From positions 35,562,501 through 35,626,500 of the forward strand of contig NC_092568.1 of NCBI RefSeq assembly GCF_037975245.1: a stretch of 64,000 bases of DNA, read 5' to 3'. The notes beneath the pieces were generated by a model, which saw nothing but the letters and a program-made list of their open reading frames with translations, was not told where the DNA came from and did not search any database. The position numbers were made by a program, and so were the translations under genes. Of the stretch, positions 11,550 to 59,300 are shown in pieces. How positions within the stretch are numbered: position 1 is the first letter of the stretch; every line of letters starts with the position of its first letter. This DNA comes from Apostichopus japonicus (taxonomy: Eukaryota > Echinodermata > Holothuroidea > Aspidochirotida > Stichopodidae).

Positions 11550-14500
11550 CTATATTTTGTGAGCTGCTCGTATCACAGAGAACTTAATCCCATGTTTATG
11601 ACAGCGATCTATCAGCGATGTCCGATGAAAGGCTGCTGCGGGTGTGTAAACGCCACCTCTGTGAGAATACGTAGATATAAGCATACAAAGATAGCAGGTT
11701 AGAGAAATGAACAAATTGATTGACACCTAAAACAATTAACACGCAGTGAATAAATATAAAGCCATATTTAATGGATTACATTTTGAGCGAGGGGGGGGGG
11801 GGGGTGGAGGATGATTCAGCGATATACAGATATGCGCACAAACACTGTAGGGGGAAAGGGTTCCCATAGGTGCATGGATGTCTGTAGGGTAATTCTTCCA
11901 TGATAGGTGGATATCGATACTATATCCTGCAAAGGCGCAAGGAAGTCCGTGGTATTTTGGTTATAGTGGCTTTAACGGAGTATTGCTGTGTTTGTGTCAT
12001 GCGTGTGTGAGGGTGGGGGGGGGTGGGGAAGGGGTGATATATTAAGAAAAACTTGTGAAAATATAACACCATATTACAAATAAAACTCAACACACTGTCA
12101 TAAAACTTGCTTGGCAAATCGTGGGACATTTGGGTGCGGGTGGGGGGGGGGGTGGGGGCGGTGTTACTGACAAAGATGTGATTACCTGTCTGGAAGATAG
12201 CTCGTTTCTTTAAGAATCGTCAGACCAGCTTGTATCATGCCAATCGGAGTTGTGACGTATGCCATTTCTAACAAAAAACAAACAAACTACAGTTCAAAAT
12301 ATTTCAAAACATACTTTATACAGGCCTTAGTATCGACCTTATGTCTATAAACTGCATATATAATCATTGCAGTTAATATATAGATCGCTGTTATTTTGGG
12401 CAAGTTACGAAGGCATATACTGTTGTATCAGAGTATATGAATTGAAGTACAGACCCATAGATTCGAGCTTTTGATAGCAGTTTCAGTTTCGATCATTTTG
12501 TAGATATTCTTATAAGTAGTACTGGAACTTGCACAAACTGATGTCGAAGACGTTATCAGATCCACATATATAGATATGTATAGATTGTCTTGACTTACGC
12601 AATAGAATGTGTCACCAACGGTCAATTATCAATTCTTCTTATGTCTACCCGACCCCTCCCCACCCCTTTGGGAACCAGGTAGTGTTTCGGGGACATCTAT
12701 GTCACCAGACCCCTGAAGTTTCTGACAGTATTATGAAATAGCAACACTATACTTAAGTTACTTCGCGAGCCCTCGGTATTTTTCCTGGCTCCCTAATTGC
12801 CACAGGTTCCTCCCTTATACCACTCAGCCTGATCAGCCCCTCGCATCGATTCTCTCTCTATGTTTATAAATCCCTAATTAAGGCATGACGTTGCATCCAT
12901 GATGACAAGTTCGTGTGTAATTGAACAATAATGTTGGGAGGTGTATGCTGCGTTGTTTTACCTCCATGGTTGTACTATGAGTCACATTGAGAGAGTTTGA
13001 ATTTCCGATCAATTGAAAACTGAAAACGCTCTTTTACAAACCTGGTCCACATACTTGAGTTATAATCGCCATATCTTCTTTTCCCGACTTTTCGACAGAT
13101 TTAGATGAGAAACCTCTACCTCTGAAGGTAAAGGTAAACGATGTGGTCGCCATCTGGGCCTCAGTGGGTCCCTCGTGGCTGAAAACTCCAAACGTGAACA
13201 TTTTTGGGTACTAATGTCAAAGGATTATTAACCATTAGTTAGACCAAAACAATGTTGACAAGAAATGTCAAAGTTTGGAAGGAAAATTAATTTGAAAGTC
13301 CTAATCATGGATTAAAAATGTAGACTTGAAAGTTAAACTTTTGAAGGACGATTATTTTGCAACTAAATTGTTGGCAAACCTGAGTTTCCTCATAAGAAGT
13401 TAGCCAATTTTGCAGACAAACGTAACATATTTGAGTGACACGAGACATATGTCGAATTGCCAGTTATAATATAACCAGTTGCCATTATTCTTGATTCAGT
13501 GTTGAAGTTAAGTTTCCGTAGATGTATGCAGGCAGATGGGCAAAAGTTGAGCGGCTGAAGGTCAAGGGGGTTTCAAAGGTCACGGGACATATTTTGTTAG
13601 CTTCTCGGCCTTTTGGCTAAGATCATAAGTAGTATCTCTTCCCTTTCGAGGGAAATGGTGATGCACACCTGACGATGATCACACAGTCACAGTCCCGATG
13701 CAAGGGGACTGGGGTTAGAAGCGGATCAGTCGTTCAGTAGTTTGGTTTTCGTGCCCAGGTTCTTTCCTGGGCGACTTTTTCTTAAAAAGTATATTTTGTT
13801 AGCACTGACGGGCAAGGTATAAATAATGTCTGTCTTTTGGTTTGTGCCTGTAACATTTAGTATGGGGGGGGGGGTGGGATGGGGCTTGCAAGCATGGCAC
13901 TCTATATAGAGGGTGCTAATCTGGCACCGATAGCTGTATACAATTGTCGGTATGTCATATTTCTTACATAACTTGACAATTTATCGAATGTCAGGTCAAT
14001 AAAATACAAGACAAATATCCTCAAATTTGCAAAAGAAAGCATACTTCATTTACATAAGAAAGAGTACTTCATTTTCATAAGAAAACAAACAAAGTTGCTT
14101 CATGAATTTACCTTGGAGAGAAGTTTTCGTCCACATCTGAAGATAGACAAGATCCCAATATTTATCATGACAAAGATAAATGACATCAAAGATAAGAAAC
14201 TCCGCCTAGTGTAACTTTGTCGATACTGCACCTGTCAATATTAAATGAACGAAACGATTGGAACAGTGCCCATTAATTGTTGTCTCTTAATTAATTTACA
14301 CACAATTATAGTATACATTCTAAGCCTGCCTATTGTAAGCTGGTTGCATGTCAGAGCAGGGAGTTGTTCCATATAACAACTCCCTGGTCAAAGGCATTTT
14401 TGAACACCCCACAGCCTCCCCGTGTCACTGTCCCTTCCCCCAGCTCCTTTCAAATTCTCCAATCTCACATTTACCTGTCTAGCAGCGGTTGCTCCTGTTT

Positions 14501-16151
14501 TCTAATCCTGTTGTAAAATCGAGACAGCCGATTGGTAACTGATGTCATGCATTGCAAAGAGAACTGAGAGGAAGATCAGAGCATCAAATTCCATTACACT
14601 CAGCAGTGGCGTAGGAAGGTACTTTTGAGTGGGGGGGGGGGCTGAAGACTGACGGCCGGCCTGGGGGAGGGGTCTAAGGGGAGGGGGTGTCCCCTCCTTT
14701 GGATTTTTTTTTGCATTTCCAGGTGGCCTCAGATGCAATTTGGTGCAATATAGCACACTTCAACACCCACTCCATTTTGTAACTAATTTTGCATTTTCAC
14801 CTGGCCTTAGATGCAATTTGGTGCTCCAAATGAGATTTTTTTTCTCATTTGGAAATGAAAAAGGGGGTTTCTGACTTGCGAAGCGGTGGGGGGGGGGGCG
14901 GAATGATACTTCCGCCCCCCATATTTTTCACTAGGGGGCTGGCGCCCCCAGCCCCCCGGTTCCTACGCCCTTGACACTCAGTAAAAGGAGATTAATTTCT
15001 TACCGGTCTTTCCTTCTTGGTCTCGTAAAGGTATCTCTGTGATCTATTGACAACACTGGCATCAGTACTGTTTAATGGTATGCACCAACCTCCACAGATA
15101 TCACTGTAGAACAGCGGGCCCCTGTATAGACATATAAAAACAAGTATTAAATAAAGTGGTATCAGGAAAAACGTGTGTTTTGAAGCTTAACAATATGAAT
15201 GTAAAAATTATTTGAATGGCCATAACGCCAACTTTAATTTACCTCTTGATTTTATTTGGAAAACTGCTAGAATTTTACAAATTCTATACAGGAAAGATAT
15301 ACGAGTCAAGCTGGTCGGTTACCGAGGACAATTATGTCACCAGGTTGCCCCCCCCACTCTATGGTACCCTCCATTCCCCCTTAAGTATATTATGAAGAGT
15401 ATATATTTTCCCGGGCACTCTTCACATTTTCTCGGCTCCCTAATTCCAAGGCCCCCCCCCCCCGACCAACTTGTGTCAGGTCTGATCCGATGTGCAAATA
15501 ACCTATTTTCCAGAAACAGAGTTCTTGTAAAAAATTATCCGTTATGTTAGAGAAAAACACGTATTCGAGTTAACATCAAGTGTATCGTGAAATTGTGATG
15601 TTTAAGGGACGCTCGAAAAGTTAGGCAACTACGGTACCTCGCAATTTTACCTTATCACGACGTAGTCCATTGAAAACACATAAAATCTACTAAGATGGAT
15701 GCTTCAGAGATTCAGCATGTACCTTGGTTTAAGTTTGGGCTTGCACTCAGGTAACGGAGCATAGTGAAACCTTTCACGTATTTCCTTAATCTCATTTCGA
15801 TTGGCTACAACGTGCACTGCAGAATTCAAAGTTCCAAAATTTAAGGTTGTTCCCTGTGTGTAAAATGAATGCGCAAGATTATCAGATGCAAACAGTCTTA
15901 GGCCTATAATTCAAACCGTCGTAATTATAGAGAAAAGAAGAGCAAATTAAGATTAATAGATTTATGATGATGACAATGAGGAAGATCATGCTGACGAAAT
16001 GAACAATAATGATGACGATTACTAACAGTACAATAAACAGTACAAAATATAACAATAGTCATATACCGATAACAGTAACAAGGTAATAACGATATGACGA
16101 TAATGATGATGATGATGACGACGACGACGACGACGATAATGATGATGATGC

Positions 16152-28989: not shown

Positions 28990-31900
28990 TCACTCAACCT
29001 TCTTCTCCAAGCCAACTAACTCAGCACTGACTTCCCAGAGCTTCCTAGCTATTGCTTCATCTTCTGCTTTGGGTAAGGGTTTCTTGACTTTACAATCGCT
29101 GTTGAAGAGAGAAGAAAACATGCATTGAACGGAACTCTTTACTTTGAAACCTAATCCAATAACATTTGACATGACAGTTGTTATTTCATTCGGTTTAAGT
29201 TATTTTGTTTTATCATAATGTACATATACAGACATGTGTATATCAAATAATATGTAGGGATATATACATACATACATTGAACGAAGTGATCTAAGAAAAC
29301 ACCAAGTTTGCAGTTTAGTCCAGTTGGTCACTGTAAAACACAGTATAACCAAATGACATGTAAACACAACAAACAAAACAGATACAAATACAACCAGACA
29401 GTATTGCTAAAAGTAGAAAATACGTGGCCTTGACTGACAAAAGAATTTAAATTATCTACTGGATGATGAAACAGTGCAACAATTTTTTAAAATCCTGTGG
29501 AATTCCAGAGAGAACACAGTCTAAATTTTGGCTGTATTCTTTCATTTATATTTTGACGTCAGTAGCAGAACAAAAACCTATCACAGTGGATACTGTTGAT
29601 AGATTCAGTAAAGGGCAACACGAGAGAGATGATGAGAAAGGTGCAATGGGGTGGGGAGGGGGGGGTGTGGGGATTCCAAAACTCTACAAACTTTAGTTTT
29701 TATCCCTGATAGATTGCTAGACTCAACAGAGCTCCTATCTGCCTTCTCTGTCAGATTCATACTTCCTTTCAGTCCTATCCCATAATTCAATGAGCAGAAT
29801 CTGCCTACTTCCTGTCCCCCCTCCATCTTCCATCCACCAAACAGATGTAGCACTCTACATCCCTTGACTGTTGCCCATACATTCTCTCCGGAACCCAACT
29901 GAACGACCACACTGTGCAGGATCTCAATACATTCAAGTATTAAGGTAAGTGTCAAACAATATGCAGTATGAAATCAAAGAGCCATCACCGCACTCACCTG
30001 TAGTACAGACCAGTCTCCTGGCCAGCTTTCTCGTCCACGGCGCAGTGAATGGTGGTCTGGGCGCCCTCTACCGCCGATTTGAACATCAACCTCCTCAAGA
30101 AGGGACCCAGTATGGCCAGTGGTATACCCAGCCAAGGCCACGAGGTAGTGACGTGTCTCTGCAGCTCTGTATCGACTCCACCGGGATGCAAAGAATAGGT
30201 AGTCACCGATGTTCCTATTAAAAAGATAAATAATTTTTCGTTTTTTCCCCTTCAAACCTTTGGTAAAGAAAATACTGTTTGGATAAATATAACAGTACCT
30301 TGCTATTACACAATATATTATTAATGTAAAAACAAGAAGCCTAATATCTTGTACTCTTTCCTTTGTTCAAGAGATGGATTCATCGCCAAACAACTACAAT
30401 AATAATAATGTGAAATGTCTTGTCAACTCTTTGCCGTCTATTCAATTAATGAATATATATTTTGAATAGACTGTCCTAAACGACAGAATCTCAGAGCCAG
30501 GTCGAGTGGAGGGTACAATTGCTTCATCAGACCCACATTTAGAAGTCTTCTTTTTTCATCAAGCATGAAGTGAAGAAAAAGAAAGAAGTATTACTCTCCC
30601 CCCCCCCATTTTTCCTCAGGCCCCCTGATTTACCCTGGTCCCCAGACTGTAGCCCCTCTCATTCCATCTTGTCAGACCTGCTTAGGCACCAAGAGAGATT
30701 AAACCCTTCTTACAAACATAATAAACAATTCACAATGCATACAAATTGTGCAATCGGCACTCTTAATAGTACTGTTCTACAAATTTTCAAATATCTATTA
30801 AAGTCATATAACTAATTCCCTCAAAGGTCAGAAGTATTGGGCCCACATATAATCATGTTAAAAATCACTAGAGAATTTCAAAACTTCTTTCTGGGAATAG
30901 TGGACTCTTCAAATTACTAATGGGTACTACAGATATTGAGGAGTTCTAAATCAGACTGCTAAATCATATTGGAAAAAAAGGCTTTGGGGGTGCAATTAAA
31001 ACAAGTTTTGGGGGTTTGAACATGAGAGATCAAAATTACTTCATTTTCTAGCTAATAGCCCAAATACTGACAACTTTAAAGAGCTCTACGCATGATGATG
31101 GTAAGGCAAGAGTACCGTTTCATGTGAATGTCATCATGGAATTGTTTAAAACACGTACCTTCCAGACGTCTGGCTAGTTCTTTGGTAAAGAGTACATTAG
31201 CTAGTTTACTCTGACAGTAGGACTTGATGGGTGTGTAGTCTTTCTCAAGCATCAAGTCATCAAAGTGTATGTCACCGTTCTCGTGTGCCAACGATGAAAG
31301 ATTGACGATTCTGGCCGGGGATGACTTCTTTATGAGATCCAGCAGAAGGTTGGTGAAGAGAAAATGGCCCAAATGATTGGTCCCAAACTGCAACTCAAAA
31401 CCATCTTTGGTCGTCCATCTCGGACATGTCATCACCCCTGGAAGAGGAGAGTGTAAGCAACGACGCTCAGACCGATGAAAACTTAATTAGCATGCCTGGT
31501 TGCGATGACCCTAAGCTACAGGTTAATTGCACGGTCTACGACCTTAACATCGTTAGTTGGAAGATTTCAGACAGAAACATAGCACTGGGCAACAAAACGG
31601 CATTTATGAATACATCATTTAAATTTGGAGAAACAAAACCTGGTTACAAGAAGGCAACATGAGATGTCATTTTTTTGGCAGTAATTTATTTGGTAAAGAG
31701 CAATGCTGTCAAGTTAAGCAGTAACACAATAGAGTTCTGCAAAATAAATCAAAGGATTATTTCTGTGAAAATTTGTGTTTTCAAAACAAAAGTTGCTCAG
31801 AATGTATAAATCATCATATCTTTTGTCACAATGTGAAAATAAGTCATTTAACAATTTCTGCATAACATTCTGTATCAACTTCTTATCAATCTGGATGTTA

Positions 31901-34223
31901 AGGGCCAAGGTTTTAGCCAAATCAATGCTGAAAACTTTGCAAATGATGTCTTTATATAAGGATCATGATTGAGAGGCTCTACTTATCCAAAAGAAAATTA
32001 CAGAACTTTTGACTATATAAGGATTTGTATTGTGCCTTTAGATTCCTCTTGTTTTCACTATGGTACTCAAATAATTCCCTGGAATTGTAAAAATTGTTGT
32101 ACTGTATACTGATATTTATTTGTATTAAATATTTCAATAAATTTCAATCCATAAAAATTTCAATTAAATTAGTAATATTTGACAAGATTAAAAAATACTC
32201 TACCAGCATTGTTAATGAGGATGTCCAGTCTCGTCAGCTCCTTATTAATCTTCTCGGCACACTGACGAATCGACTCAAGGGATGCCAAGTCCAATTCCAT
32301 GACAGATACATTTCTATTTCCTGAGAACTCAATGATTTCAGCCTGGGCTGCTTCAGCTTTCTGTACGCTCCGACAAGCAATTATGATCTTGGCACCTGGC
32401 AAATGAAACATTTGATGATGCCATTAGAATTAGGAAGCATTCTACAGCATCTACTGTATTTCACATGGATCAAAGAAGAAGGATTGATGCACATATGTGT
32501 AAATCTTCACATGTCATTGGGGAATAAGGAGGTTCACCAGTTCTAACACTAATAATCATAGTCACTATATATAGTCCCAGTCAGTAAAACTAGCTGTTGC
32601 AATTGATCATGAGCTCTATATGCCATATGAGAAGTCTCTGGGTCCCCCATATTATTCTTCCCCTCCCCCTCCATTCCCTTGCAGGGAGTGGGGGGGGGGA
32701 TACTGTATGCCTCGTCAGCCTTTTGCAGTCTGCACTGGTAGGCCTTGTTGATTTTTGTTAGGTTGGCAGAGATCTTGGCTACAGTGCTGATAGCATCTGT
32801 CAGCCCTCTGTTCAAACAGCATCTGAGTAACTCACCTCTCTTTGCCAGGTCAATGGCTGTCTCCTTACCAATACCAGTGTTAGCTCCAGTTATCAGCACA
32901 GTTTTGCCATCAAGACGAGCTTTACTGTAGCACCATCCTCCAGCTACCCACCGTCTGAACAGAAAGAGGCTAATTCCTTCAAGATACCAAAAATGAACAT
33001 GAAAAAGTTATCATGCTACAAACACGAAAGGCCATGAAAGAGAAGTTAATACAAAAATTTCTGAGATTAGGCTCGGCAAATTCTAACTTCTATCTTGATA
33101 TAGGCCTATTTCAATATTGACTGAACTTGAACAGCTTACTATGTACAGTGAGTTACACATCATCATGAAATAAAAGTAGTTGGAATATCTGTCTCTCGAC
33201 AACTGTCGCAAAACCTATACCCCTAGTCCCCTACTGTCCATTTGGACTTCTTAGTCTTAGAGTCTGACTACAACACTCAGTAGCTTATTTCTGCAGCTAC
33301 TACTAGTGTACTCCTACCAGTACTAGTACTACTTATGCGAGCGCTAGTTGTGGGATCTTATGATCGCTGAATTACTTGCTTTAAGATATGGTATAAACCA
33401 TAACTTTATATGAAACACCTAATTTGAAATTAATGAGTCAATCAACTCATCGGTTTGCAAAAATGGTTTCTATTTCATCGTTAAGTCTGATTAATAGATT
33501 CTACACAAATACAAAACACCCTAATAATAGTGAAATATACCGACCGGCGACGAATTGGACATGATCCATGAATTCTAACATATTTTGTTAGGCCCTAGTT
33601 ATTACTATAGTCAGTATTGCGAAGCTCGGAACACTGCGAAGTTCGGACACCCCTAAGAAATACTGTACACGATTTAACCATGAAAACCTACAGCAAGAGC
33701 CAATTTCACGAAAAACTACGAAGCTAGTTATTTTCTCTCCAAAAGGACCCGTGTGCAAGCAAGTACTTACATATTTTGTCAATGAAAAGAAGTTATAGTT
33801 TTGGGGTGTTTTAAGGCTTAGGTGTCCGACCTTCGCACTGTGCATGATACTACTAGTACTAGGTCTAGCCTAGTACTAGTAGTAGTAACAGTTACAAGTT
33901 ATACTGATGAATAGATAAAACATTCGTGATAAAAAGCATCAAATAAGCTCTATTTCAGGCTAACCACCGAAATATTCCAATGACTAGGCCTAGTATGAGT
34001 TGCGGCAATGTTTTCGCGATGTGTAGTTTCAATTGGCGAAATCAGTACTACTATTGTAGCCTAGGGTTACTTTGACTTTGTACTCTTACTCAGTCTTACC
34101 CTTACTACCTTAGCCTAACTGCCCTAAGCTACACATACATCTTAGTCCTTTACCTGTCCCAACCAAAGCGGAGATAAGCACGGGGTGCTTTTTCACGTAT
34201 TCCAAGAATAAGTCAAAATCCAT
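28990..34223 (-). CDS. Retinol dehydrogenase-like short-chain dehydrogenase (RDH11/12/13 group), complete
   Basis: Six exons: 34223-34154, 32943-32836, 32395-32204, 31437-31159, 30214-29998 and 29098-28990 (TGA 28992-28990). They total 975 nt, 324 residues, the usual size. The N-terminus [16 protein letters not shown] and the following short hydrophobic stretch suggest a membrane anchor. Then come AGGWC, the cofactor motif [10 protein letters not shown] (TGxxxGxG), IACRS (a basic residue suited to NADPH), INNAG, the catalytic serine in IVNLSSLAH, the catalytic YCQSK (YxxxK), [12 protein letters not shown] and the C-terminal [13 protein letters not shown]. Members reduce retinaldehyde and other aldehydes in the ER or mitochondria using NADP(H); which paralogue this is cannot be settled by eye. 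Exon 2 must use the TAG acceptor at 32944-32946: the nearer CAG at 32955 would put a stop in frame. Confidence 0.92.
33632..33840. mobile_element. Short element with terminal inverted repeats (possible MITE)
   Basis: The left end CACTGCGAAGTTCGGACACC is matched, inverted, by the right end (CAGTGCGAAGGTCGGACACC on the other strand), about 20 of 22 positions. About 209 bp in total and without coding capacity. No clear target duplication was found. It lies in intron 1 of the RDH-like gene. Confidence 0.55.
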
Positions 34224-35904: not shown

Positions 35905-37402
35905 AATAAGCAGTCAGGTGATCTCTTTAAGAAGATCCCTTTCTTACATTCATAAGCAGTTAGGTCATCTCATTCTTACATTCATAAACAGTTAGGTGAT
36001 CTCATTCTTACATTCGTAAGCAGTAAGATGATCTCATTCTAACATTCATAAGCAGTTAGGTGATATCATTCTTACATTCATAAACAGTTAGGTGATCTCA
36101 TTCTTACATTCATAAGCAGTAAGGTGATCTCATTCTTACATTCATAAGCAGTAAGGTGATCTCATTCTTACATTCATAAACAGTTAGGTGATCTCATTCT
36201 TACATTCAAAAGCAGTAAGATGATCTCATTCTTACATTCATTTGCAGTTAGGTGATATCATTCTTACATTCATGAGCTGGAAGGTGATCTCATTCTTACA
36301 TTCATAAGCAGTTAGGTGATTTCATTATTACATTCATAAGCAATTAGATGATCTCATTCTTACATTCATAAGCAATAAGGTGATATCATTCTTACATTCA
36401 TAGGCAATAAGGTGATATCATTCTTACATTCATAAGCAGGAAGGTGATATCATTCTTACATTCATAAGCAGTAAGGTGATCTCATTCTTACATTCATAAA
36501 CAGTAAGGTGATCTCATTCTTACATTCATAAGCAGGAAAGTGATATCATACTTACATTCATAAGCAGTAAGGTGATCTCATTCTTACATTTATAAGCAGT
36601 TAGGTGATCTCATCTAACATTCATAAGCAGTAAGGTGATATCATTCTTACATTCATAAGCAGTAAGGTGATCTCATTCTAACATTCATAAGCAGTTAGGT
36701 GATATCATACTTACATTCATAAGCAGTAAGGTGATCTCATTCTTACATTCATTAGTAGTTAGGTGATCTCATTCTTACATTCATCAGCAGTAAGGTGATC
36801 TCATTCTTACATTCATAAGCAGTAAGGTGATCTCATTCTTACATTCATAAGCAATTAGATGATCTCATTCTTACATTCATAAGCAGGAAGGTGATATCAT
36901 TCTTACATTCATAAGCAGTAAGGTGATCTCATTCTTACATTCATAGGCAGTAAGGTGATATCATTCTTACATTCATAAGCAGGAAGGTGATATCATTCTT
37001 ACATTCCTAAGCAGTAAGGTGATCTCATTCTTACATTCATAAGCAGTTAGGTGATCTCATTCTTACATTCATAAGCAGTAAGGTGATCTCATTCTTACAT
37101 TCATAAGCAGTTAGGTGATCTCATTCTTACATTCATGAGCTGGAAGGTGATCTCATTCTTACATTCATAAACAGTAAGGTGATATCATACTTACATTCAT
37201 TAACATTCATAAGCAGTAAGGTGATATCATTCTTACATTTATAAGCAGTAAGGTGATATCATTCTTACATTTATAAGCAGTTAGGTGATCTCATTCTAAC
37301 ATTCATAAGCAGTAAGGTGATTTCATGCTTACATTTATAAGCAGTAAGGTGGTCTCATTCTTACATTCATGAGCAGTAAGGTGATCTCATTCTTACATTC
37401 AT
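35905..37402. repeat. 32-bp minisatellite array
   Basis: About 46 copies of a 32-bp unit of the type TTACATTCATAAGCAGTAAG followed by GTGATCTCATTC, with variants (GTTAGG, GATATC, GGAAGG). It ends about 20 bases before the acceptor of the transmembrane exon of the pseudokinase gene at 37424. The unit is not a multiple of three, so it cannot encode an extended repeat protein. Confidence 0.95.
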
Positions 37403-39977
37403 ACTATTTACTTTGTTTCACAGTTGGTGTGTTCGCTTTGTTATTGGGTAACCTAGCATCGGTTATTCCCAGTGTGGTGGCGTTTCTGTCCTGCTGTATG
37501 TTACTTTGTATGTATATCAGTAACAAGAGAACTGGATGTAGGTATTACAAATTATTAATGTTAAGACTCGTTTACACCTATATGTCTCCTATTAACACCA
37601 TATGCTTGTAATTCACACACACAAAGGATACATATAGTTTGTGCGTTATAACGCCAAAGGAATATGACTTTTAATTTAACTCGTAATTGATTTGGTTCTA
37701 GCGAAAATTGACCTTTAACTTAACATGTAATAGCTTTAGTTTCAAAACGAATCAAACCAATGTTCTGAGTTCTTTCTGTGTTTTCAAATTTCTTTCCGAT
37801 TTTCTGACAGTTTTCTCTTACTTGGAAACTTAGCTTATCTGTGTTTGAAAATAATGTATTAGGCCTACCTCCCTTTAACACTAGATTCGGATTGCACACT
37901 CGAGGCTCAAGTTAAGAGACATAAGCCCTAAGTTAAATAAGAAGTTTTAACGTAATTCCAATAACGTAATGCATTTGAACTTTCCTGAAATGTGGTCGAA
38001 TCGAGTAGAGATGGGTCACGATCTTATTACTATTGCATAAACTTTATACCACGTGTATGCTTTAGCTACCGACTATGTAGTCGGTGTATATAGCTAGAGA
38101 TCTTGGATAGACCAGTGCTGCAGTATTACTACCAGATTATATTCCATGGAGTGAAATAAATTGCAAATCATTCTGACCAATCTTGACTGATCGTAGTTAT
38201 AGCTGTTCACGACTGTTCACGACTGTTTGTAACTGTTCGCGACTGTTTGCGACTGTTCGCGACTGTTCGTGACTGTTCGCGACTGTTCGCGACTGTTCGT
38301 GGCCGTCTTTTTCTATTCGAGTATATGTTTAATGGACATTTCGAATTATTTGTAAATAAATTTACTGTAACACAATCAGTTTCGTAAATGTAAAATAGTT
38401 AGATATTGTGACTAACACATATGTATAGACCTCTACTTGAAGTGTGCTTAGTTCCCATCATAAAGCTATTACTGTTAGCATATTTTGATTGATTCAGTTC
38501 ACTTTATTTAAGTTCATTCCACTATGTAAAAAACAAGGAAAAACCAAGTATGGATACAAGACGTGGATGGGAGCTGAAGAGGCTAAATGCATTTACAGGC
38601 AGCTCCCATTTACAAAATTAAGACAAACATTAAATCTATTCGACCAACTGTCGATATCATTTCTTCATGCAGCACACTTGATGACAGTTGGAGTCAGCAC
38701 GTAAGTACTCCAATTATATCAACTCCTCCACTCCCCCACATCAACCCCAATCATAACAACAACACTCTGGTGAACCATTGATGTGATAAGTCTCAATTGG
38801 TTAGGTAATTGATAAAGTATCAATAAAGGATCGCTCGTAAAAATAATATGGCTTTTGCTGTTTTACTCAGTAAGTTGCTGGTCCAAGTGATATAATTTAA
38901 TTTTTATTCAGTATATGACAAACGACATAGCACAAAAAGTCTGATGACTGCATGATTGCATTCTTATTTTCGTTTTCCTTTATAGAAGGAGCGACGCTGC
39001 ACTGAATTCTAATGAAGTTTCTTTGAACGTTCTCAGCAGAAATATTGAGAATCCTCAACGACCGGGTAAATACTTTTGAAATATAAATTTTGATATTTTA
39101 ACTTGAACAAGTCAACAACTTTTCCTTTTTTTTTCTGTTTTTCCTTCCTTCTTTGCATGTTTAACTAAACGTAATAGTTAACAAAATAGTTAAGTAATTC
39201 AGCAGGTTGGTCGCGTCTTACATAAAGGACGTCTTATATAATATATATAAATGAGTGTTAGCTCAGTGATTAACGCCGGTGCCTTCCAATCATAAGGTTC
39301 CCAGTTCGAGTCACTACAAGATTGTATGTCGTCCAGTTACAGAGTTGTTGACATGGACGTTAAATATGATCTAAGAGACTGACTTCGGTCAGCTTGCGGC
39401 TTTGATAAGCCAATGAGGCTTCTTTGCGAGTTCCTGCTTGCCAAAGGATCTAAAATACATATATACATATTTTGTGCTATATGTTTTCGGTTTGTTTGTA
39501 TATTGTACACGTCCCGTTCATCTTGAAGCAATATGAAAACACTTGCACATAACATTAGGCTGATATGTTCTCTATGTATGAATGATGTGTATGGTGTCAT
39601 TTTTACTAACCAAATACTTATTTGGCAAGATTGAAAGAAGGGGGAGCATGGCTTACTCTTTATCATCTGCAGTATACTAGTAGTATTTTACCCAGGAAGC
39701 ACGTGACTGTCATGTTAATTACCTTCTCATCTGATACATTTGCCGTATGCTTCTGTCAACTAGCTTGTCATGTATGTTCAACCTTATGGTATCAGTACTA
39801 CGTTGTACCAGGAAAATGGGAAAATAGAACCTGGCCATCTCAGTCATCTTCCACGATATTGGAGTTAGCAATATGTTACGTATAACATATACAATACACT
39901 TACATGACTGTACTCCAACTGCAATACGTTGCCTCTCACTGCACCTCGTAGAATCTACCATAGCAATGTATTCTGAG

Positions 39978-40045
<68 letters not shown>

Positions 40046-43000
40046 TTATTTCATAAATTCAATTTTCTTTCTCCATTTTCATTAAAAAAAATTGTTACGT
40101 CATTAGTCGGTTGATTAACATAAAACATTTCTATTACTTGCTATTATTTTACGTAGAGAACTTTAAATACTATATTTTTTTTACTTTATATTTTCCTATA
40201 TAGTTGTTCAACCTAGCATTCCAGTACGCAAAAAGTAAGTTTTAATTACCCTGTTAATAATTAGTACAGGGTTATTCCCTTCGTTTAAATGATAATGTCG
40301 ATATACTTAAGAATGGGCTTACCATAGCAGACGAATGTACCAAGCTGTTTGCCAAAATTACATAATGGGGGAAGCAAATGTTGGCTAACGGTCGTCAAGG
40401 TAGAGGCCTAAGGGGAGTCTATTTCGCCTCCACTTTGTGAAACAATTGTTGGGAAGATATGGGGAGAGATTTCCAGCACCTACCACCCCCCCCCCCCCTC
40501 CTTCCTAACATGCATCTATGGGTCCGATATTGATTGTTTGATTAAAATAACGGTCAATAACTTGTCATTTCAATAACTCCCTGCGTCACAAGTTATACTC
40601 AAGGTATCACTTTTTAGCTAGCTTAGCTATGTAAAAACACACTCCTTATGGTATTCAGTTAGCTTAGCTAGGTAAAGGCACACTCCCTATGGTATTCAGT
40701 TAGTTTAGCTATGTAAAGGCAACTTCTTTATGGTATTCAGAGGCACACTCCCTGTGGTATTCAGTTAGCTTAGCTATGTAATGGCACACTTCTTACGGTA
40801 TTCAGTTAACTTAGCTTAGTGAAGACACACTCCCCATGGTATTCTGTTAGCTTAGCAATGTAAAGGCAACCTCCTTATGGTATTCAGTTAGCTTAGCTAT
40901 GTAAAGGCAACCTCCTTGTGGTATTCAGTTAGCTTAGCTATGTAAAGGCAACCTCCCAATGGTATTCAGTTAGCTTAGCTATGTCAAGGCAACCTCCTTA
41001 TGGTATTCAGTTAGCTTAGCTTTGTAACGACACACTCCCCATGGTATTCAGTTAGCTTAGCTATGTAAAGGCAACCTCCTTGTGGTATTCAGTTAGCTTA
41101 GCTATGTAAAGGCAACCTCCCAATGGTATTCAGTTAGCTTAGCTAAGAAAAGCACACTCCCGTTGGTATTCAGATAGATTACGTTACTAAATCTTCTAGC
41201 GGACACTCACTTTCATTGAACTTATGTTTTTGTTTCAGAAAAGAATTACCAATGATTCCTGTTACAGCAGAAAATTCGCGGTAAGATCAATATGCCTTGT
41301 CAAAAAGAAACCGTTTCTTCCTCCTTGAAGAATATCCTCTTTTTTCTTACTTTGGTTGTATTTTAACGATAATCGCTTTAATTTGGTCATTTCAGAATAT
41401 ATAAGGCAAATTTACTCGAACAGAGACTTGGAGAGGATATATCAAATGATTCTTCAGAGAGCGAAAAAAGTAAGTTGCTTCAGTGACCTTTCAGTTTTGT
41501 TCTCGTCTAAAATGTTACATCAATTTAAATAAGGGTAACTCCTGTTGCCTCAAAAGAACAATTATTAGCGAGAGAAGCACTGTTTTACCATAATAATGGA
41601 AAACGGGACGAAAAAATAGTCAAGAAATTTTGTGGCAATACTTAAATACCATGACTGCAGGAACATGATGTTGCATGATCAGTGTAAGAATATAAAGATT
41701 TAATTTGTAACGAGAAGATAATGTTACTAAAGCGACATCTTTTTATCATAATGTGTGGAACATTTCTCAATCCAAACATGTTTTATTAAACCTATCGTGT
41801 ATATAAGCAAATAATCTCGCCTAAATGTCGAACTTTCTGAGAATGATGATATTGCATTTAAGTTATTCCGTATGAAATGAATAAAATAACTTTAATATTT
41901 AAATTAAAAATATTGTCTTGTGAATAATTTGCTTCTGTCTTGAATATTTCGGTAAACTTTTAAGACATTCAAGGGAATGTTGTTTGAGTAGAAAGCAATT
42001 CTGTACGTATCTGCAAGTATCAGGTAAGTTCATTGTTTGGATATTAAAGTAACATATATAGCCCATGTGGATTAGAGGCTGTCAATTACGTCATACATAA
42101 TGCGGTATTGGTGCTGCTGTTACATAACTCTTTACGATGTAATAATTAAACCATCGAGTTATGCGTTCCCCTGACAGAGTACTATTCTACGACAAACGAA
42201 GGGATATACCATGAGGATAGGATACTAGACCAGAAAGATGTTAGTATTATTATGGTTATCAAGATTGGAAAGATCCACAACAGATGGACGGGATCCATTA
42301 ACATCCCTGGTGGTATCACCAAATGTGTGGTACTAACAACTATGGCAGGTAGGAATGTGTATTATGCAGGTACACAATGCTTGGTATGACAGTATTGACA
42401 GGAATTTGACTAACTAACTTGACGGACTAGGGCATTGAATGGGACAATCTTACTTGACATACTAGGGTATTGAATGGGACAATCTAACTTGACATACTAG
42501 GGTATTGAATGGGACCATCTTACTTCACACACATTACGGTATGGAATGGGGCAATCTCACTTGACATACTATAGGGCATTGAATGGGACAATCTCACTTG
42601 ACATACTAGGGCATTGAATGGGACAATCTCACTTGACATACTAGGGCATTGAATGGGACAATCTCACTTGACATACTATAAGGCATTGAATGGGACAATC
42701 TTACTTGACATACTAGGGTATTGAATGGGACTATCTTACTTGACATACTAGGGTATTGAATGGGACCATCTTACTTCACACACATTACGGTATGGAATGG
42801 GGCAATCTCACTTGACATACTATAGGGCATTGAATGGGACAATCTCACTTGACATACTAGGGCATTGAATGGGACAATCTCACTTGACATACTATAAGGC
42901 ATTGAATGGGACAATCTTACTTGACATACTAGGGTATTGAATGGGACTATCTTACTTGACATACTAGGGTATTGAATGGGACAATCTTACTTGACATAAT

Positions 43001-46000
43001 AGGGTATTGAATGGGACAATCTTACTTGACATACTAGGGTATTGAATGGGACAATCTCACTTGACATACTATAGGGCATTGAATGGGACAATCTTACTTG
43101 ACATACTAGGGCATTGAATGGGACAATCTCACTTGACATACTATAGGGCATTGAATGGGACAATCTTACTTGACATACTAGGGTATTGAATGAGACAATC
43201 TTAAATGACATACAAGGGCATTGGATGGGACAATATTACTTGACAAACTAGGGTTTTGAATGGCAATATCTTAATTGACACACTAGGGTTTTGAATGGGA
43301 CAGTCTTACTTTCTCAATGTTACGTTTGCTCTCTGATAAATGTTCATTCTTGTTACCGTATTTATATTTCCAGATGAACTTAAAGAGTGACGCGAATAAT
43401 AACCAAAAACCTTTTTTCTTTTCTAAAGATCGAGTGAAAAAGAAGACAATCCATTGGGATGCTTTCATCAAGTTATGTCTAGAATTGCCAAAGACAGAGC
43501 ATATCGTAAAGGTTGAGGCGATTTCCATCCAAAAGAGTAAGATATAAGCAGCTTCCAGTTGCTTCCCTCTCGTGATGTTCTATAAATATATTACCTATCC
43601 AATGTTTTACATGAGTAATAACAAACAGAATATAAATTAACTTGCTTTCCTAAGCTACTTATATCGTGTGAAGAGTAAGTTTTATATTAAACAACAATAA
43701 GATTGATCAAAGTTAGAAAAAGAAGCAATCTGATTTATTTTTGCTGCCGCCTCATTTCAGAATACAATTATCTCATTACCGAGCATCTTGTCTGTGAAAC
43801 CTTGAAGAGCAAACTCTCCCGGACAGGAGATGAATCTGCTGCTGCTAGCTCATATGGTTCACTTTCCATTCCTGACGTCATCCAACACGTTGCAGGTATT
43901 TTAGAAGCAATGGACATTTTGAAGTCGTTTGGGGTAAGCTTTAGTTTATTGACATATGTTATGTCAAACGTATTTACCATCAAGCTTGCTATCATTTCAA
44001 GATGCATGTTAATATGTACACTTCGGTCTTATATTTATTACATCGATTATTAATGTAGGATGATGTATTCTGTATGATGTTATACTATCTTGTTTTCTTT
44101 GCATCAAAGTTTCTCCATCCTGGTTTATCAACCAGAAAGATCTTGATAACTCACCAAGGAGTTTGTAAACTTTATGATTTCTGTTTGGCTGGTGATGCAC
44201 CGAAGATAGCTGCATTGATTAAACAACAGGTAATTTAATACATCATTTCAAAGTAGTATCATTTAAAACTGGCGATTTGCTTTTCCATGGTGTTTCTGAA
44301 GAGACAGGCAAATTGTGTACGCTGACTGTTGTAGTTTAATATTACATTCGACAATTTGTCATATTTGTGAAAACGTCATTGTAGTCTAACTCGATTGTCA
44401 AGTGATAGACTTTTGTTTTGAGATGCCGTGAAATTAAAGGTAAGCTAGCTCCATGTGAAAAATCAGCTTTTGACAATTGACAATTCTTGTGAAGACATCA
44501 CGCTAGCGTGACTTTTTCTTTCTCTAATATAATGCAACACAGTCACTCGACAATTTGGCAAAGTTAGTCAAGATATATCATCTATTAAAGTACGACAGCT
44601 CGACAAAAGTATACATTTTTCTTATGATGTAATTTTGTTTCTGACACAGTGGCTATTTATTTTCGCTGTTACAAGAGATCTGAATATTCTGGTTGAGCAT
44701 ATTTCTGCTGTTACAAGAGATCTGATTATTCTGGTTGAGCATATTTCTGCTCTTACAAGGGATATGATTATTCTGGTTGAGCATAGTTCTGCTGTTAAAG
44801 CAATCTGATTATTCTGGTTGAGCATATTTCTGCTGTTACTAGAGATCTTATTATTCTGGTTGAGCATATTTCTGCTCTTACAAGGGATATGATTATTCTG
44901 GTTGAGAATATTTCTGCTCTTACAAGGGATATGGTTATTCTGGTTGAGAATATTTCTGCTGTTACTAGAGATCTTATTATTCTGGTTGAGCATATTTCTG
45001 CTGTTACTAGAGATCTTATTATTCTGGTTGAGCATATTTCTGCTGTTACTAGAGATCTTATTATTCTGGTTGAGCATATTTCTGCTCTTACAAGGGATAT
45101 GATTATTCTGGTTGAGAATATTTCTGCTCTTACAAGGGATATGGTTATTCTGGTTGAGAATATTTCTGCTGTTACAAGAGATCTGATTATTCTGGTTGAG
45201 CATATTTCTGCTGTTACAAGAGATCTGATTATTCTGGTTGAGCATATTTCTGCTGTTACTAGAGATCTGATTATTCTGGTTGAGCATATTTCTGCTGTTA
45301 CAAGAGATCTGATTATTCTGGTTTAGCATATTTCTGCTGTTACTAGAGATCTGATTATTCTGGTTGAGCATATTTCTGCTGTTACTAGAGATCTTATTAT
45401 TCTGGTTGAGCATATTTCTGCTGTTACAAGCAATCTGATTTTTCTAGTTGTGCATCCGCCTGTAAAAATATTCCACTTAGGAATGGGTCAGTACATACAT
45501 TCAGTGTGAAATATTGAGGTGGATCAAATATGAAATTGTGACCTTTTTTTCATACAACTCTCATGTATCAAACACAAGACATCCATGTACACTGTAATGT
45601 TCGATAAAGTTATAATAATGGCAACATTGATACATATCGTCATTAATACTGCTTTTAGTAATATTCAGCTAAGGGATATATCATAGTGAAAACAAAAACG
45701 TTAGTTATGAGTAGTAACAAACAGTGTATTTGCCTCTTAGATGATGAATGTGTCATTGAACGAATTTCCACCTGAACTGTTGCTGTCAAGTGAATATACA
45801 GAATCCAGTGACGTGTGGTCTACAGCTGTGGTGATATATGAAATTATGTCAGGTGGTAAGACTATACATCAAAGACACCATGTATATAACATACATTAAT
45901 ATTTATTGCACTTCTTTATTACATAGGTTGTATAAAGTAGCATGATTAAATCGAATCTAGCGATGTTTGATCAAGAGCAGTTGTGATGTTTATGACCATG

Positions 46001-51056: not shown

Positions 51057-51759
51057 ATAAATTGAATACACTAAGTGTTGCATCTATATATCTCTTTTAC
51101 TTGTAGCGGGATTCCTCTACAGGCAAACGTATCTGTGGAAAAAATCCATTAGGGTATCGAAAATTGTGCGATTTGTATATATTACATGCTTCTATAGCAC
51201 TGTAAATGTTGAGTGTAATATTTACATTCCATCGACTAGATAATAAAACGCTTTATGCTATATTTTAGTGAATCGTTTACATAGGCACTGTACAGAGCAT
51301 GTTGCAATCCCCAATTAGCATGACAAACGTAGTTAGTTACACACAAAACGATCTGTAGGCCTAATAAAATAAACAAGTGAAATATTACGAATTAATAATT
51401 GAAGATGTGAATCACTTACATTATAATAAATACATAAATACATAAGTTATGTTATTATTAGCTTGAAAACATCTTTATCTATGATCTATTACTTAACTTC
51501 CATCAATGGATTCTTACAGACCGTAGTAAGAGCATTGCATCGAAACTACGAATCACAATGTTAGAGCCACAGGAAACATCAAATTTGCACATTTTCATCA
51601 ACGGTAAAATAATTGGTGAAATATTAAGTCAAGAGGGATTCTTTTGATAAATGTAAACACTAAGGCAACATTTTCCTGTAATATATCTCAGGAAAAAGGA
51701 AAGAAATGCAACAGTCGAATATTATGGCTGACCGATTATTCCCGACTGTACCCTACATA

Positions 51760-51951
51760 CTTTTTAAGAAAGGTCACCCAGGAAAGAACCTGGGCACGAG
51801 AAAACCAAACGACTGATCTCAAGCCTAGTACCCCTGCATCGAGACGTGACTGCGTGATCATCGTCAGGTGTTCCCGGCCTAAAATTTTCGAGAATATATA
51901 GTGCTACACGGTCATGATCTTCCAAGTTAGCCAAAAGGCCGACAAGAATTT
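51760..51951 (-). mobile_element. SINE-like element with a U2 snRNA-derived head (copy 2)
   Basis: Read on the minus strand: TTGTCGGCCTTTTGGCTAAC at the head, then a diverged middle, the shared block ACACCTGACGATGATCAC with CAGTCAC, and the same 3' hairpin CCCAGGTTCTTTCCTGGG with TTCTTAAAAAGTAT. Head, middle block, hairpin and 3' end occur in the same order as at 13602-13790, so the chimeric structure is shared and not accidental. More diverged than copy 1. Confidence 0.8.
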
Positions 51952-54992: not shown

Positions 54993-55752
54993 CACAGTAT
55001 GAAACAAATTAATAGATTAGCGAACAAAAGCTGGTGTTTGTAGTTTAAAACGATTCATTCAATTATCAATAAAGTTATCGATCAAGCACGTTGAAGATAT
55101 AAATTGCCTTATTAATACGCGAATCACAATATGGAAGTTACAATAATTATTTTACATATAGAAGAATGCCAAAATGGTAATAATATCAAATATCCATGCA
55201 GACAAAACGTTTCACATATTCTGTGTGCATTATTTACGAGCCTGTATATACACACACTTTAATCCAACACCACCTCTGGATGGTTATCCAACTACAATAA
55301 AGATTAGGAAGGGATCCTTAAGTACTTAGTGTTATAAGCGTTAATATCATGATGACTTTAAACATTGTCATTAGCACCCCTCTGCCCCGTCTTTCCTCCC
55401 CGTTTAACCGCTACTCCCACACCACACCGCCACCAACCTTGCTACCTTCGAGAAAGAAGACTGCTTGTACAAGTAATCTATTACGAATACCTAAATCGTC
55501 TCTCATTCCCTTCCAAATTACCCCTCTATATTCCCCCATTCCCTTTCCTTTCCTTCGAAAAAATACCTTGAAATACTACAATGATTACCCATAAATATTA
55601 TGGGCCTATTCATGTTGTGATAACATCACACTATTATAAGCCATGTCTCCTTTCTCTTCCTCCCCCAGTCATACCATTTGCACGACCCTTCATTTCTTCC
55701 GCATTACAATAATCCTTCATAATAAATAATTAAATATATAGGCATACACTAT
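54993..55752. other. Gene-free interval
   Basis: No exon recognised; CT-rich patches at 55370-55560 give open frames without family resemblance. Confidence 0.5.
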
Positions 55753-56113
55753 CAAGGGCGTAGGAACCGAGGGGCTGGGGGGCGCCAGCCCCCCAGTGAA
55801 AAATATGGAGGGGCGGAATTATAATTCCGCCCCCCGCTTCGCAAGTCAGAAAACCCCTTTTTCATTTCCAAATGAGAAAAAAATCTCATTTGGAGCACCA
55901 AATTGCATCAAAGGCCAGGTGAAAACGCAAAATTATTTACAAAATGGAGTGGGTGTTGAAGTGTGCTACATTGCACCAAATTGCATCTGAGGCCACCTGG
56001 AAATGCCAAAAAATTCCAAAGGGGAGGGGGACACCCCCTCCCCTTAGACCCCTCCCCCAGGCCGGCCATCAGTCTTCAGCCCCCCCACTCAAAAGTACCT
56101 TCCTACGCCATTG
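55753..56113. mobile_element. hAT-like MITE (family A, copy 2)
   Basis: Starts CAAGGGCGTAGGAACC and ends TCCTACGCCATTG; it is the 14604-14973 element in opposite orientation, with the same AAATTGCATC and GGAGCACCAAATTGC blocks inside. An exact 8-bp duplication TACACTAT flanks it (55745-55752 and 56114-56121). Confidence 0.92.
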
Positions 56114-56327: not shown

Positions 56328-59300
56328 TTAAGCAGCCATTTTCCTCGTATAGATGAAGTTAGTACAAAGACCTTCCGGTTTCAAAGTTAGTTGATCAACA
56401 ATTCCAAAACTCTGAGTTTGATCTAACTTGAAGGTAAAATTCTGGAATAACTTGGCGAGAATCACACGAGCTTCGATCTATAAGGCATTATAAAGAATAA
56501 AGTAAAATGTGTTGGTTAAAAATGTAAAGTACACATACACACACACACACACCCAAACATATTGATAACTTTCTCCACATGATAGATACTTGCTACAAGT
56601 TCATATGCGGTAGATCTTCTGAAAAGTACCGTCAATGCAAACATTCAAACTACAACGTTAATCATTATTGATAAGGAGGCATACAAATTTGAAAAGTTTG
56701 TTCCTTAGCCTTACGAAATAGCTATTATCAGGTTGTCGTCGTCATTAGTTATTATCAGGATGTCGTCGTCAATAGTTATTATCAGGTTGTCGTCGTCAAC
56801 AGTTACTATCAGGTTGTCGTCGTCGACAGTTATTATCAGGTTGTCGTCGTCAATAGTTATTATCAGGTTGTCCTCGTCAATAGTTATTATCAGGATGTCG
56901 TCGTCAATAGTTATTATCAGGTTGTCGTCGTCAACAGTTATTATCAGGTTGTCGTCTTCAACAGTTATTATCAGGTTGTCGTCGTAAACAGTAATTATCA
57001 GGTTGTCGTCGTCAATAGTTATTATCAGGTTGTCCTCGTCAATAGTTATTATCAGGATGTCGTCGTCAATAGTTATTATCAGGTTGTCGTCGTCAACAGT
57101 TATTATCAGGTTGTCGTCGTCGACAGTTATTATCAGGTTGTCGGCGTCAATAGTTATTATCAGGTTGTCGTCGTCAACAGTTATTATCAGGTTGTCCTCG
57201 TCAATAGTTATTATCAGGATGTCGTCGTCAATAGTTATTATCAGGTTGTCGTCGTCAACAGTTATTATCAGGTTGTCGTCTTCAACAGTTATTATCAGGT
57301 TGTCGTCGTAAACAGTAATTATCAGGTTGTCGTCGTCAACAGTTATTATCAGGTTGTCGTCGTCGTCATTATCACCATTCCGTATTTCTTTTTTTAGTTG
57401 ATGAACAGAATTTTAGAAGGCTCGCTCGTAATGAAACTAACGGGATCGGGGTAAGAGGAAGGGGTGGGGGTGGGGGTGGGGGGTGGGGGACGTACATGAG
57501 TTTACAAGAAAAATCATCAGAAACATGCTACAGTGAACTTACCAAAGCAAACTGTTGTCCAATGCAGGACCGAGTGCCGAGAGAAAATGGAAAGTAGGCG
57601 TACAAAGGGCTTTAAAAGAAAAATAAGGAAACCGTTCATTTTATTATATACATGTCAAGTATGCTTCAAATACAAACAAATATGAAACGAAGTAATTATT
57701 ACTGCTGCTCAGTATGAAAACAATCAGTCAGAATTGTTGCAGCATTCAGAGAGTGAGGTTGCTACAGAAGCACGAAATCTTACAAAATGAATGAGTTATC
57801 AAACTGTGGAGTAGATGATGGGAGGGGTGGGGAGGGGGGGGCGAGGATCAGTCAGAGAAAGGGTCAGCTTTTTCTCCGGAAGGAAGACAGTAGTACTTGG
57901 AGTAAATCACACGAGGCAATGCTTTATCATAATTATTGTAAATTATTGTTTCGTGAAGATGGAGGGGGCCGATAGGGGTGGGTGGCCTGGGGGTCCCCAC
58001 CACCACCCATAACCTCATTGTTAACCTCACTGTCTGGGTACTTACTTGTCTTCATCTCTGAGGAACCGATCGGGATCAAACTCCAAAGGATTTTTGAAGA
58101 ACTGTTCCATTCTGGACATTATATAATGAGTCAGCTTCACATGTGGAGGAAAACAACAAGCAAGATTCAGTGTAGCCTATACATATCAAACTTAAGGATT
58201 GACATACTCTTAAGAGTGAACGCTTGAGTTCGCCGCTAGCAATTTCAATCACATAGATTGATTAAGATATCACTTAGAATCAATCTGAATGAACGTTGGT
58301 TTCATTGAACTGACAAAGAAAGTTTTTCATCTGTCGACGGCTAACTCTGAGTAAACTTTAGGTTACTATAACAGGGACTTACTTAGTATATAAGGCTATA
58401 TCAACGAAGTAGTGCGCCTGATCCTCCCCATCAACCATCCACACCCTCTCACCCCTTCTTCGTCCCTAAACAAACATAACTAACGCGTAATATCACCCGT
58501 ATTTTTATTGTTTATATCATGATGTAATGGAATTTCATTTAACAAGTGTTTATGTATCCGTTTATAGTGCATGGACGTAGATAGCTTTTCTGAAGTGGGG
58601 GGGGGGGGGGGGACGATACCAGTCGGATCAATCGAAGATGATGTCACATGGGAAGCAGAATGATGTAATACTAGAACGCATTCGTCGCTGTTATCAATAC
58701 CCGGATATCCGGATTTTTTTTTAAATAACGCTATAGGGGCAGGTTAGCACTTAATATTTGAGTTTCAACATACTGAGTTTTCACTTGGTCAAATCAGTTT
58801 CAATGTACTCTAGTGCCTCTGTCACATCAACAGTATTCGTGAGACATTGGACGATATTGCCAGTACTGAATATTACGACTTACCATTCATTTTCTTCTCA
58901 CACGTGGAGGGATGTTCGTGATGATGATTATTATTATTACTTTTTTCATTAGAGGCTTGAAAAGTGGGCGGGATATTATGTGTTACGTCCCCCACAGCTC
59001 ACAAGTGTGGGGGGCATATCCCCACCCTCACGGGTTCTACGCCCTTGCAATAGCGTATATACAAAGTACCTGAAAAGTTATCAGCCTCACCTTTACATAT
59101 ATTTCGTGATTAATTAGAACAGTAAATACCTGGCAATTGGTTCCAGCGGGGACGTGATATCCACACACTTCCAGATCGTGGGCACATTCCCTGCTTGTTC
59201 CGGCAGCTGGGGGATAAAGACGCAAGGCTTCCTTCAAAACCTGCAAAGATAAAACAACATCGCTTTGGGCTATATAGACTTGGAAATTCTCTCGATTCAG

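Follow-up and report, generated by a model that had tools for sequence, protein, structure and literature searches.

We asked how a short repeat in the genome of the sea cucumber Apostichopus japonicus came to carry the 5' end of U2 snRNA, and whether that head says anything about how the repeat moves. The repeat lies in a stretch of 64,000 nucleotides, here called the window (GCF_037975245.1, NC_092568.1, positions 35,562,501 to 35,626,500). The original prediction, made from the letters of the window, was of a SINE-like transposing element with a U2-like head, an unrelated body and a terminal hairpin, bounded by exact repeats. This reading was right in kind, and the biology is more specific than it supposed.

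A U2 head on an unrelated body

The predicted parts are all present in the first copy, including the exact ATATTTTGTTAGC repeats on both sides (Table 1). Copy 1 (13602-13790) opens with TTCTCGGCCTTTTGGCTAAGATCA, which equals U2 nt 6-29 with 0 mismatches. The head continues with GTAGTATCT, its second U2 match being TAGTATCT, and is followed by about 150 nt of non-U2 sequence with two 3' inverted repeats. The terminal GC of the left ATATTTTGTTAGC could equally count as U2 nt 4-5. The Rfam U2 alignment spans 13597-13684 with 37.2 bits (E 4.4e-6, 401 bp searched); it rests on the head and stays below the gathering score of 46, and a scan of the whole window at the gathering threshold found nothing. 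An Rfam scan for another origin of the element body gave weak matches only. Pattern scans of IMG/VR with the body, the tail and the U2 head gave 3, 0 and 0 matches, and the 3 were chance 17-18-mers.

Table 1. Parts of the two element copies in the window
Feature	Positions	Strand	Remark
Left target-site duplication ATATTTTGTTAGC	13589..13601	+	exact repeat of right duplication
U2-derived head	13602..13641	+	U2 nt 6-45 in window copy 1
Body and tail, unrelated to U2	13642..13790	+	Rfam: chance-level match only
Terminal hairpin GCCCAGG-TTCTTT-CCTGGGC	13753..13772	+	within element tail
3'-terminal inverted repeat ACTTTTT-CTT-AAAAAGT with T5 run	13774..13790	+	element end
Right target-site duplication ATATTTTGTTAGC	13791..13803	+	exact 13-bp repeat
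Second, older copy (head, body, tail)	51759..51945	-	73% identity

The second copy that had been proposed near 51760 is real. It has the same head-body-tail order as copy 1, and the identity between the two is measured over 201 columns. Its U2 head alone scores 11.9 bits in Rfam (E 5), and no clear target duplication was found around it, the best candidate being TATGTA. A family profile, made from 95 copies in the genome, matched only copies 1 and 2 in the window (E 1.7e-66 and 6.3e-30) and gave 0 matches in the reversed window.

The window has other features of its own. An inverted pair of about 370 bp (14604-14974 and 55752-56113, 91% identical) is another interspersed repeat. Long tandem arrays, whose units range from 27 to 399 bp, occupy 1114-2377, 35934-37403, 42417-43311, 44661-45455 and 56723-57364. 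Two exon-like short-chain dehydrogenase frames, slightly below the Pfam cut-off, lie on the minus strand at 31079-33007. The window has 31 ORFs of at least 110 aa; in the 20 of them that were scanned, Pfam showed no LINE domains, but SDR exons and a weak P450 were seen.

The element belongs to a dispersed family

We searched the genome of 671,581,487 bases in 35 contigs. The tail hairpin, with at most 2 mismatches, matched 2,349 places and the exact 23-mer across the head/body junction matched 674, while the controls gave 0 in both cases. The whole-element query gave 44 matches from the best 40 of 2,575 candidates; 40 of these were at 94-100% identity and four neighbouring matches at 81-91%. 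The copy number thus lies far above two, and the U2-headed element is a real dispersed family rather than a lone chimera. Elsewhere, five tail-hairpin matches stand in a row at C3:3634965-3635668 with a spacing of 170-171 bp, and eight stand in a row at C2:21947795-21948917 with uneven spacing, as though all or part of the element had turned into a tandem repeat.

For a closer description we used the first 100 of the 674 exact-head places, on contigs C1-C4, a sample that leans to young copies because it was drawn in this way. Five places without a recognisable 3' end were dropped, leaving 95 copies, and the removal of 9 near-duplicate loci left 86. From these, 61 copies with a clean GTA end served for counts in the 3' flank and 40 for the pre-integration logo; the logo includes L158, which abuts the tail of another copy, and L184, which lies in an AT repeat.

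The complete family head is ATCGCTTCTCGGCCTTTTGGCTAAGATCATGTGTAGTATCTGTTC, which equals nt 1-45 of the host's U2, including the T at nt 30. The U2 start (ATCGC or TCGC) opens 14 of the first 30 loci examined. Among the 86 distinct copies, a simple match criterion places the start at U2 nt 1 in 16 and somewhere in nt 1-6 in 50. The sequence that lies upstream of U2 genes was absent from the 23 copies starting at nt 1-2, where mean identity to it was 0.25, the chance level, and the best was 0.46. In L064 and in the flank of L158 there are head variants that continue along U2 as far as about nt 50 (TCTGTTCTTTTC) and only then give way to the body.

The top Rfam match of the element is U2, as a U2 retropseudogene or a lone chimera would have it. 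This explanation is refuted by the hundreds to thousands of copies with a common non-U2 body or tail, and we give it practically no chance. Collinearity with U2 ends at nt 45, and the U2 gene reads TCTGTTCTTTTCAGCTTAATATC at the position of the body, so the element is neither a U2 gene nor a retropseudogene of one.

Flanking duplications were found in 46 of the 86 distinct copies (51/95 before near-duplicate removal), with a median length of 12.5 bp; in five rounds with swapped 3' flanks the figure was 1-2 of 93-95. The remaining 40 of the 86 had no duplication by the criterion used. Duplications, size and copy number therefore bear out the term SINE-like. The same three properties would fit a conventional pol III SINE whose head or body hides a cryptic promoter and whose 5' end is U2-like. 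Several observations speak against this. The A- and B-box consensus scored no better in the two window copies than in shuffles, and in the strict pol III sense the term SINE is not supported. Of the 95 sampled copies, 57 have a T5 run inside their last 24 nt and 87 have four or more consecutive T there; such a run is also present in the copies that reside in U2 genes, described below. The letters of the head are those of the host's own U2, nt 30 included. A pol III SINE is therefore very unlikely.

In Table 6 of the A. japonicus assembly paper, SINEs make up 0.02% (159,644 bp) and splicing snRNAs number 996 (PMC10344927, in part). Speculatively, copies of the family may hide among the unknown repeats or the snRNA calls of that annotation.

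Copies reside in U2 genes between nt 38 and 39

The U2 genes among the best 46 of 40,968 candidates form an array of 645-bp units on C16, with four more genes on C15. There are 87 exact U2 3' halves in the genome (89 with at most 3 mismatches). Their own 5' half, joined by an exact uninterrupted junction, is present at 60 of the 87 and absent at 27. All 27 interrupted halves are on C16; 6 follow the element and 21 follow a LINE, and the junction is at U2 38/39 in each of the 23 that were read. For the 21 halves preceded by a LINE, 12 junctions were read in loci (including L196) and 5 in matched pattern letters, and the other 4 (31051685, 31083268, 31097707, 31140502) were assigned from a nearby LINE protein match only. 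The mismatched U2 3' half at C16:30966281 was left without assignment. Thus, with 27 of 87 exact 3' halves lacking their 5' half, this spliceosomal RNA array is heavily loaded.

Genome-wide, the element itself was found joined to U2 at 38/39 in 8 places, of which 6 are in the U2 array, 1 in a degenerate U2 on C20 and 1 in the head of a SINE on C5; the control gave 0. A pattern combining the element's 3' end with a generic U2 nt 39-50 gave 214 matches against 159 in the control, and is informative only as a cluster in the U2 array.

Three of the six array residents read U2(1-45), body, U2(39-), which adds 153 bp to the gene. Another is a tandem pair. The last two are 5'-truncated with a 15-bp duplication, TCTGTTCTTTTCAGC, and one of them is located behind a LINE. 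Upstream of 5 of the 6 residents lies the same sequence that precedes U2 in an undisturbed unit, and the sixth follows the LINE. The duplications measure at most 7 bp in full-head residents (11 if AGTA is counted), 15 bp in the truncated ones and 12 bp in one LINE. With their 15-bp duplications, the two truncated residents fit target-primed reverse transcription (TPRT) at U2 rather than recombination through the head. A full, undisturbed head is present in only 3 residents, and homogenisation of the array could have copied one resident event.

Residents and dispersed copies share sequence and site

Over 167 nt, the dispersed copies L157 and L169 do not differ from the resident at C16:31132318, and 16 of the 95 sampled copies are at least 97% identical to it (gap columns ignored). 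The window copies are only 92% (copy 1) and 74% (copy 2) identical to that resident, and so derive from older members rather than from today's residents. Identity gives no direction, and the residents could be a sink rather than a source.

We then compared the sites of dispersed insertions with the U2 site. In the 40 copies supported by duplications, the pre-integration site had T at -2 in 19, A at -1 in 35, T at +1 in 25, C at +2 in 24 and T at +3 in 19; the 35 of 40 at -1 is somewhat inflated, because the element's own final A favours the calling of a duplication. TCT at +1 to +3 occurred in 11 of the 61 clean copies, while control offsets averaged 1.2. Tested against local background in the same 61 copies, T at +1 gave p 1.3e-8, C at +2 2.1e-6 and T at +3 0.047. 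Outside TA/TCT the likeness to U2 is weak (6.55 of 18 vs 5.15). By these base counts, dispersed insertions favour TA/TC(T), a degenerate form of the U2 site GTA/TCTG (the slash stands at 38/39). Two copies, L064 and L141, are nested in the head of another copy at 38/39. Some tandems are thus explained by copies nesting in other heads, and other tandems have a common duplicated flank (L157 with L185).

Several LINE families share the U2 site

The region C16:30998968-31170205 (loci L034-L085, and L196) contains at least 4 LINE families within the U2 array, three of them sharing 50%, 44% and 32% of their protein sequence with the first, and they sit at 38/39 wherever the junction was read. Two of the families, at L084 and L085, encode an AP endonuclease and a reverse transcriptase; zf-RVT and a CCHC ORF1 were also seen among the LINEs at this site. 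Of the LINEs described as targeting U2 genes, Keno has an AP endonuclease and Utopia a restriction-like endonuclease (PMC4640811, in part). Judged by domains, the array LINEs thus appear Keno-like rather than Utopia-like.

A shared 3' end would be one sign of a partner LINE, and a comparison of the element's last 60 bases with LINE 3' ends had been proposed. The tail found no match in a sample of 16 LINE 3' regions (best E 0.19), of which L200 at least may stop before the end of the LINE. The tail and body have at most a terminal AAAGTA or so in common with the ends of the array LINEs. An internally deleted LINE would be expected to resemble its parent at both ends, and the element had no match to the LINE ends compared, the LINE interiors being covered in part.

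A dispersed LINE related to those of the array, with an A-rich 3' end, was seen near tRNA genes (L189, L190). ARAGORN called tRNA-Leu and tRNA-Gly in 2 of the 10 loci scanned, and tRNA-like text is also found in L187 and L192. It is possible that this LINE targets tRNA genes.

Residence in the target gene may explain the head

The explanation that we favour, and consider probable, is that the element is a U2-site retroelement whose head is a captured part of its target gene. The U2 promoter probably drives its transcription during residence, and a U2-targeting LINE would integrate it through TPRT. The element would be non-autonomous and use the LINE's machinery, and it would have its home in U2 snRNA genes, at position 38/39. 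The promoter of a U2 gene is located upstream of it. A resident joined in sense to U2 nt 1-45 stands behind an intact U2 upstream region, and its transcript would for this reason begin at +1 of U2 and extend across the body. Reverse transcription of this RNA would begin at the element's 3' end where a U2-like site had been nicked, and the U2 sequence 3' of the resident would complement the nicked strand of U2. The new copy could land in a U2 gene once more, in the U2 head of another copy, or elsewhere at a degenerate TA/TC(T) site, with a duplication of about 12 bp. The dispersed heads, coming from the transcript of a U2 resident, would therefore be captured target gene, and the dispersed copies would be promoterless. 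Transcription from the U2 promoter, the identity of the source copy and the LINE that supplies the enzyme are all points that we infer.

A different origin of the head is a template switch, in which a LINE reverse transcriptase jumped onto U2 snRNA, the way that snRNA-LINE chimeras are known to arise; the sources would then be dispersed copies, and insertion into U2 genes would be later and incidental. Jumps of R2 to small stable RNAs are documented (PMC3414825, in part), and dispersed copies are vastly more numerous than the six U2 residents. However, a jump onto the whole U2 RNA should bring its 3' part, and the head holds only nt 1-45. The head also ends 7 nt past the 38/39 nick that LINEs use in the same array. 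Headless truncated copies were inserted at 38/39 as well, so homology through the head is not needed for insertion there. Finally, the variants reaching about nt 50, known from L064 and L158, may point to repeated capture of the head. We regard a template switch as unlikely, though less so than a pol III origin.

Capture during residence in the U2 gene, the reading that we prefer, can be put more generally: residence in a target gene creates snRNA heads, in that the U2 promoter and its +1 are borrowed, copies are exported and the head is repeatedly renewed. We would put the chances of this broader statement at about even. If true, there would be a class of SINE that uses its target gene as promoter and nests there alongside multiple LINE families, and the origin of snRNA-headed SINEs would be explained in general. 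It bears on how SINEs gain snRNA heads and on how a family persists with a promoter that lies outside its RNA. The capture model is directly testable, because residents, dispersed copies (two of them identical to a resident) and LINEs of the same site coexist in this genome.

Comparison with known systems

SINEs with snRNA heads are already known under the name SINEU. These are reportedly the U1- and U2-headed SINEs of crocodilians described by Kojima in 2015, where a LINE of the Tx1 group is said to be implicated and the target is said to be a Mariner transposon. Like SINEU, the present element has a head from the 5' region of U2, an unrelated body and dispersed copies. Its host, however, is a sea cucumber and not a crocodilian, and unlike SINEU as it has reportedly been described, the element resides in U2 genes at a LINE site that its head boundary fits. 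We keep it provisionally apart from SINEU on account of its host. The titles and abstract openings that we searched, a partial coverage of the literature, named no U2-headed SINE outside crocodilians.

Keno and Utopia insert into U2 genes in such a way that the downstream U2 resumes at nt 39, according to excerpts of PMC4640811. The element likewise inserts between U2 nt 38 and 39. In contrast to these LINEs it does not code for protein; the part that is its own measures about 150 nt, and its tail is without a match to the LINE ends compared.

The R2 SIDEs are short non-autonomous residents of 28S genes that rely on co-transcription with their target (PMC3414825, in part). They are internally deleted LINEs, and a 5' ribozyme frees them from the 28S transcript, as the same source describes. 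The element resembles them in being non-autonomous and resident in a target gene, and it would probably share their co-transcription with the target. Unlike the SIDEs as described there, it keeps the 5' part of its target as a head and spreads widely outside the target.
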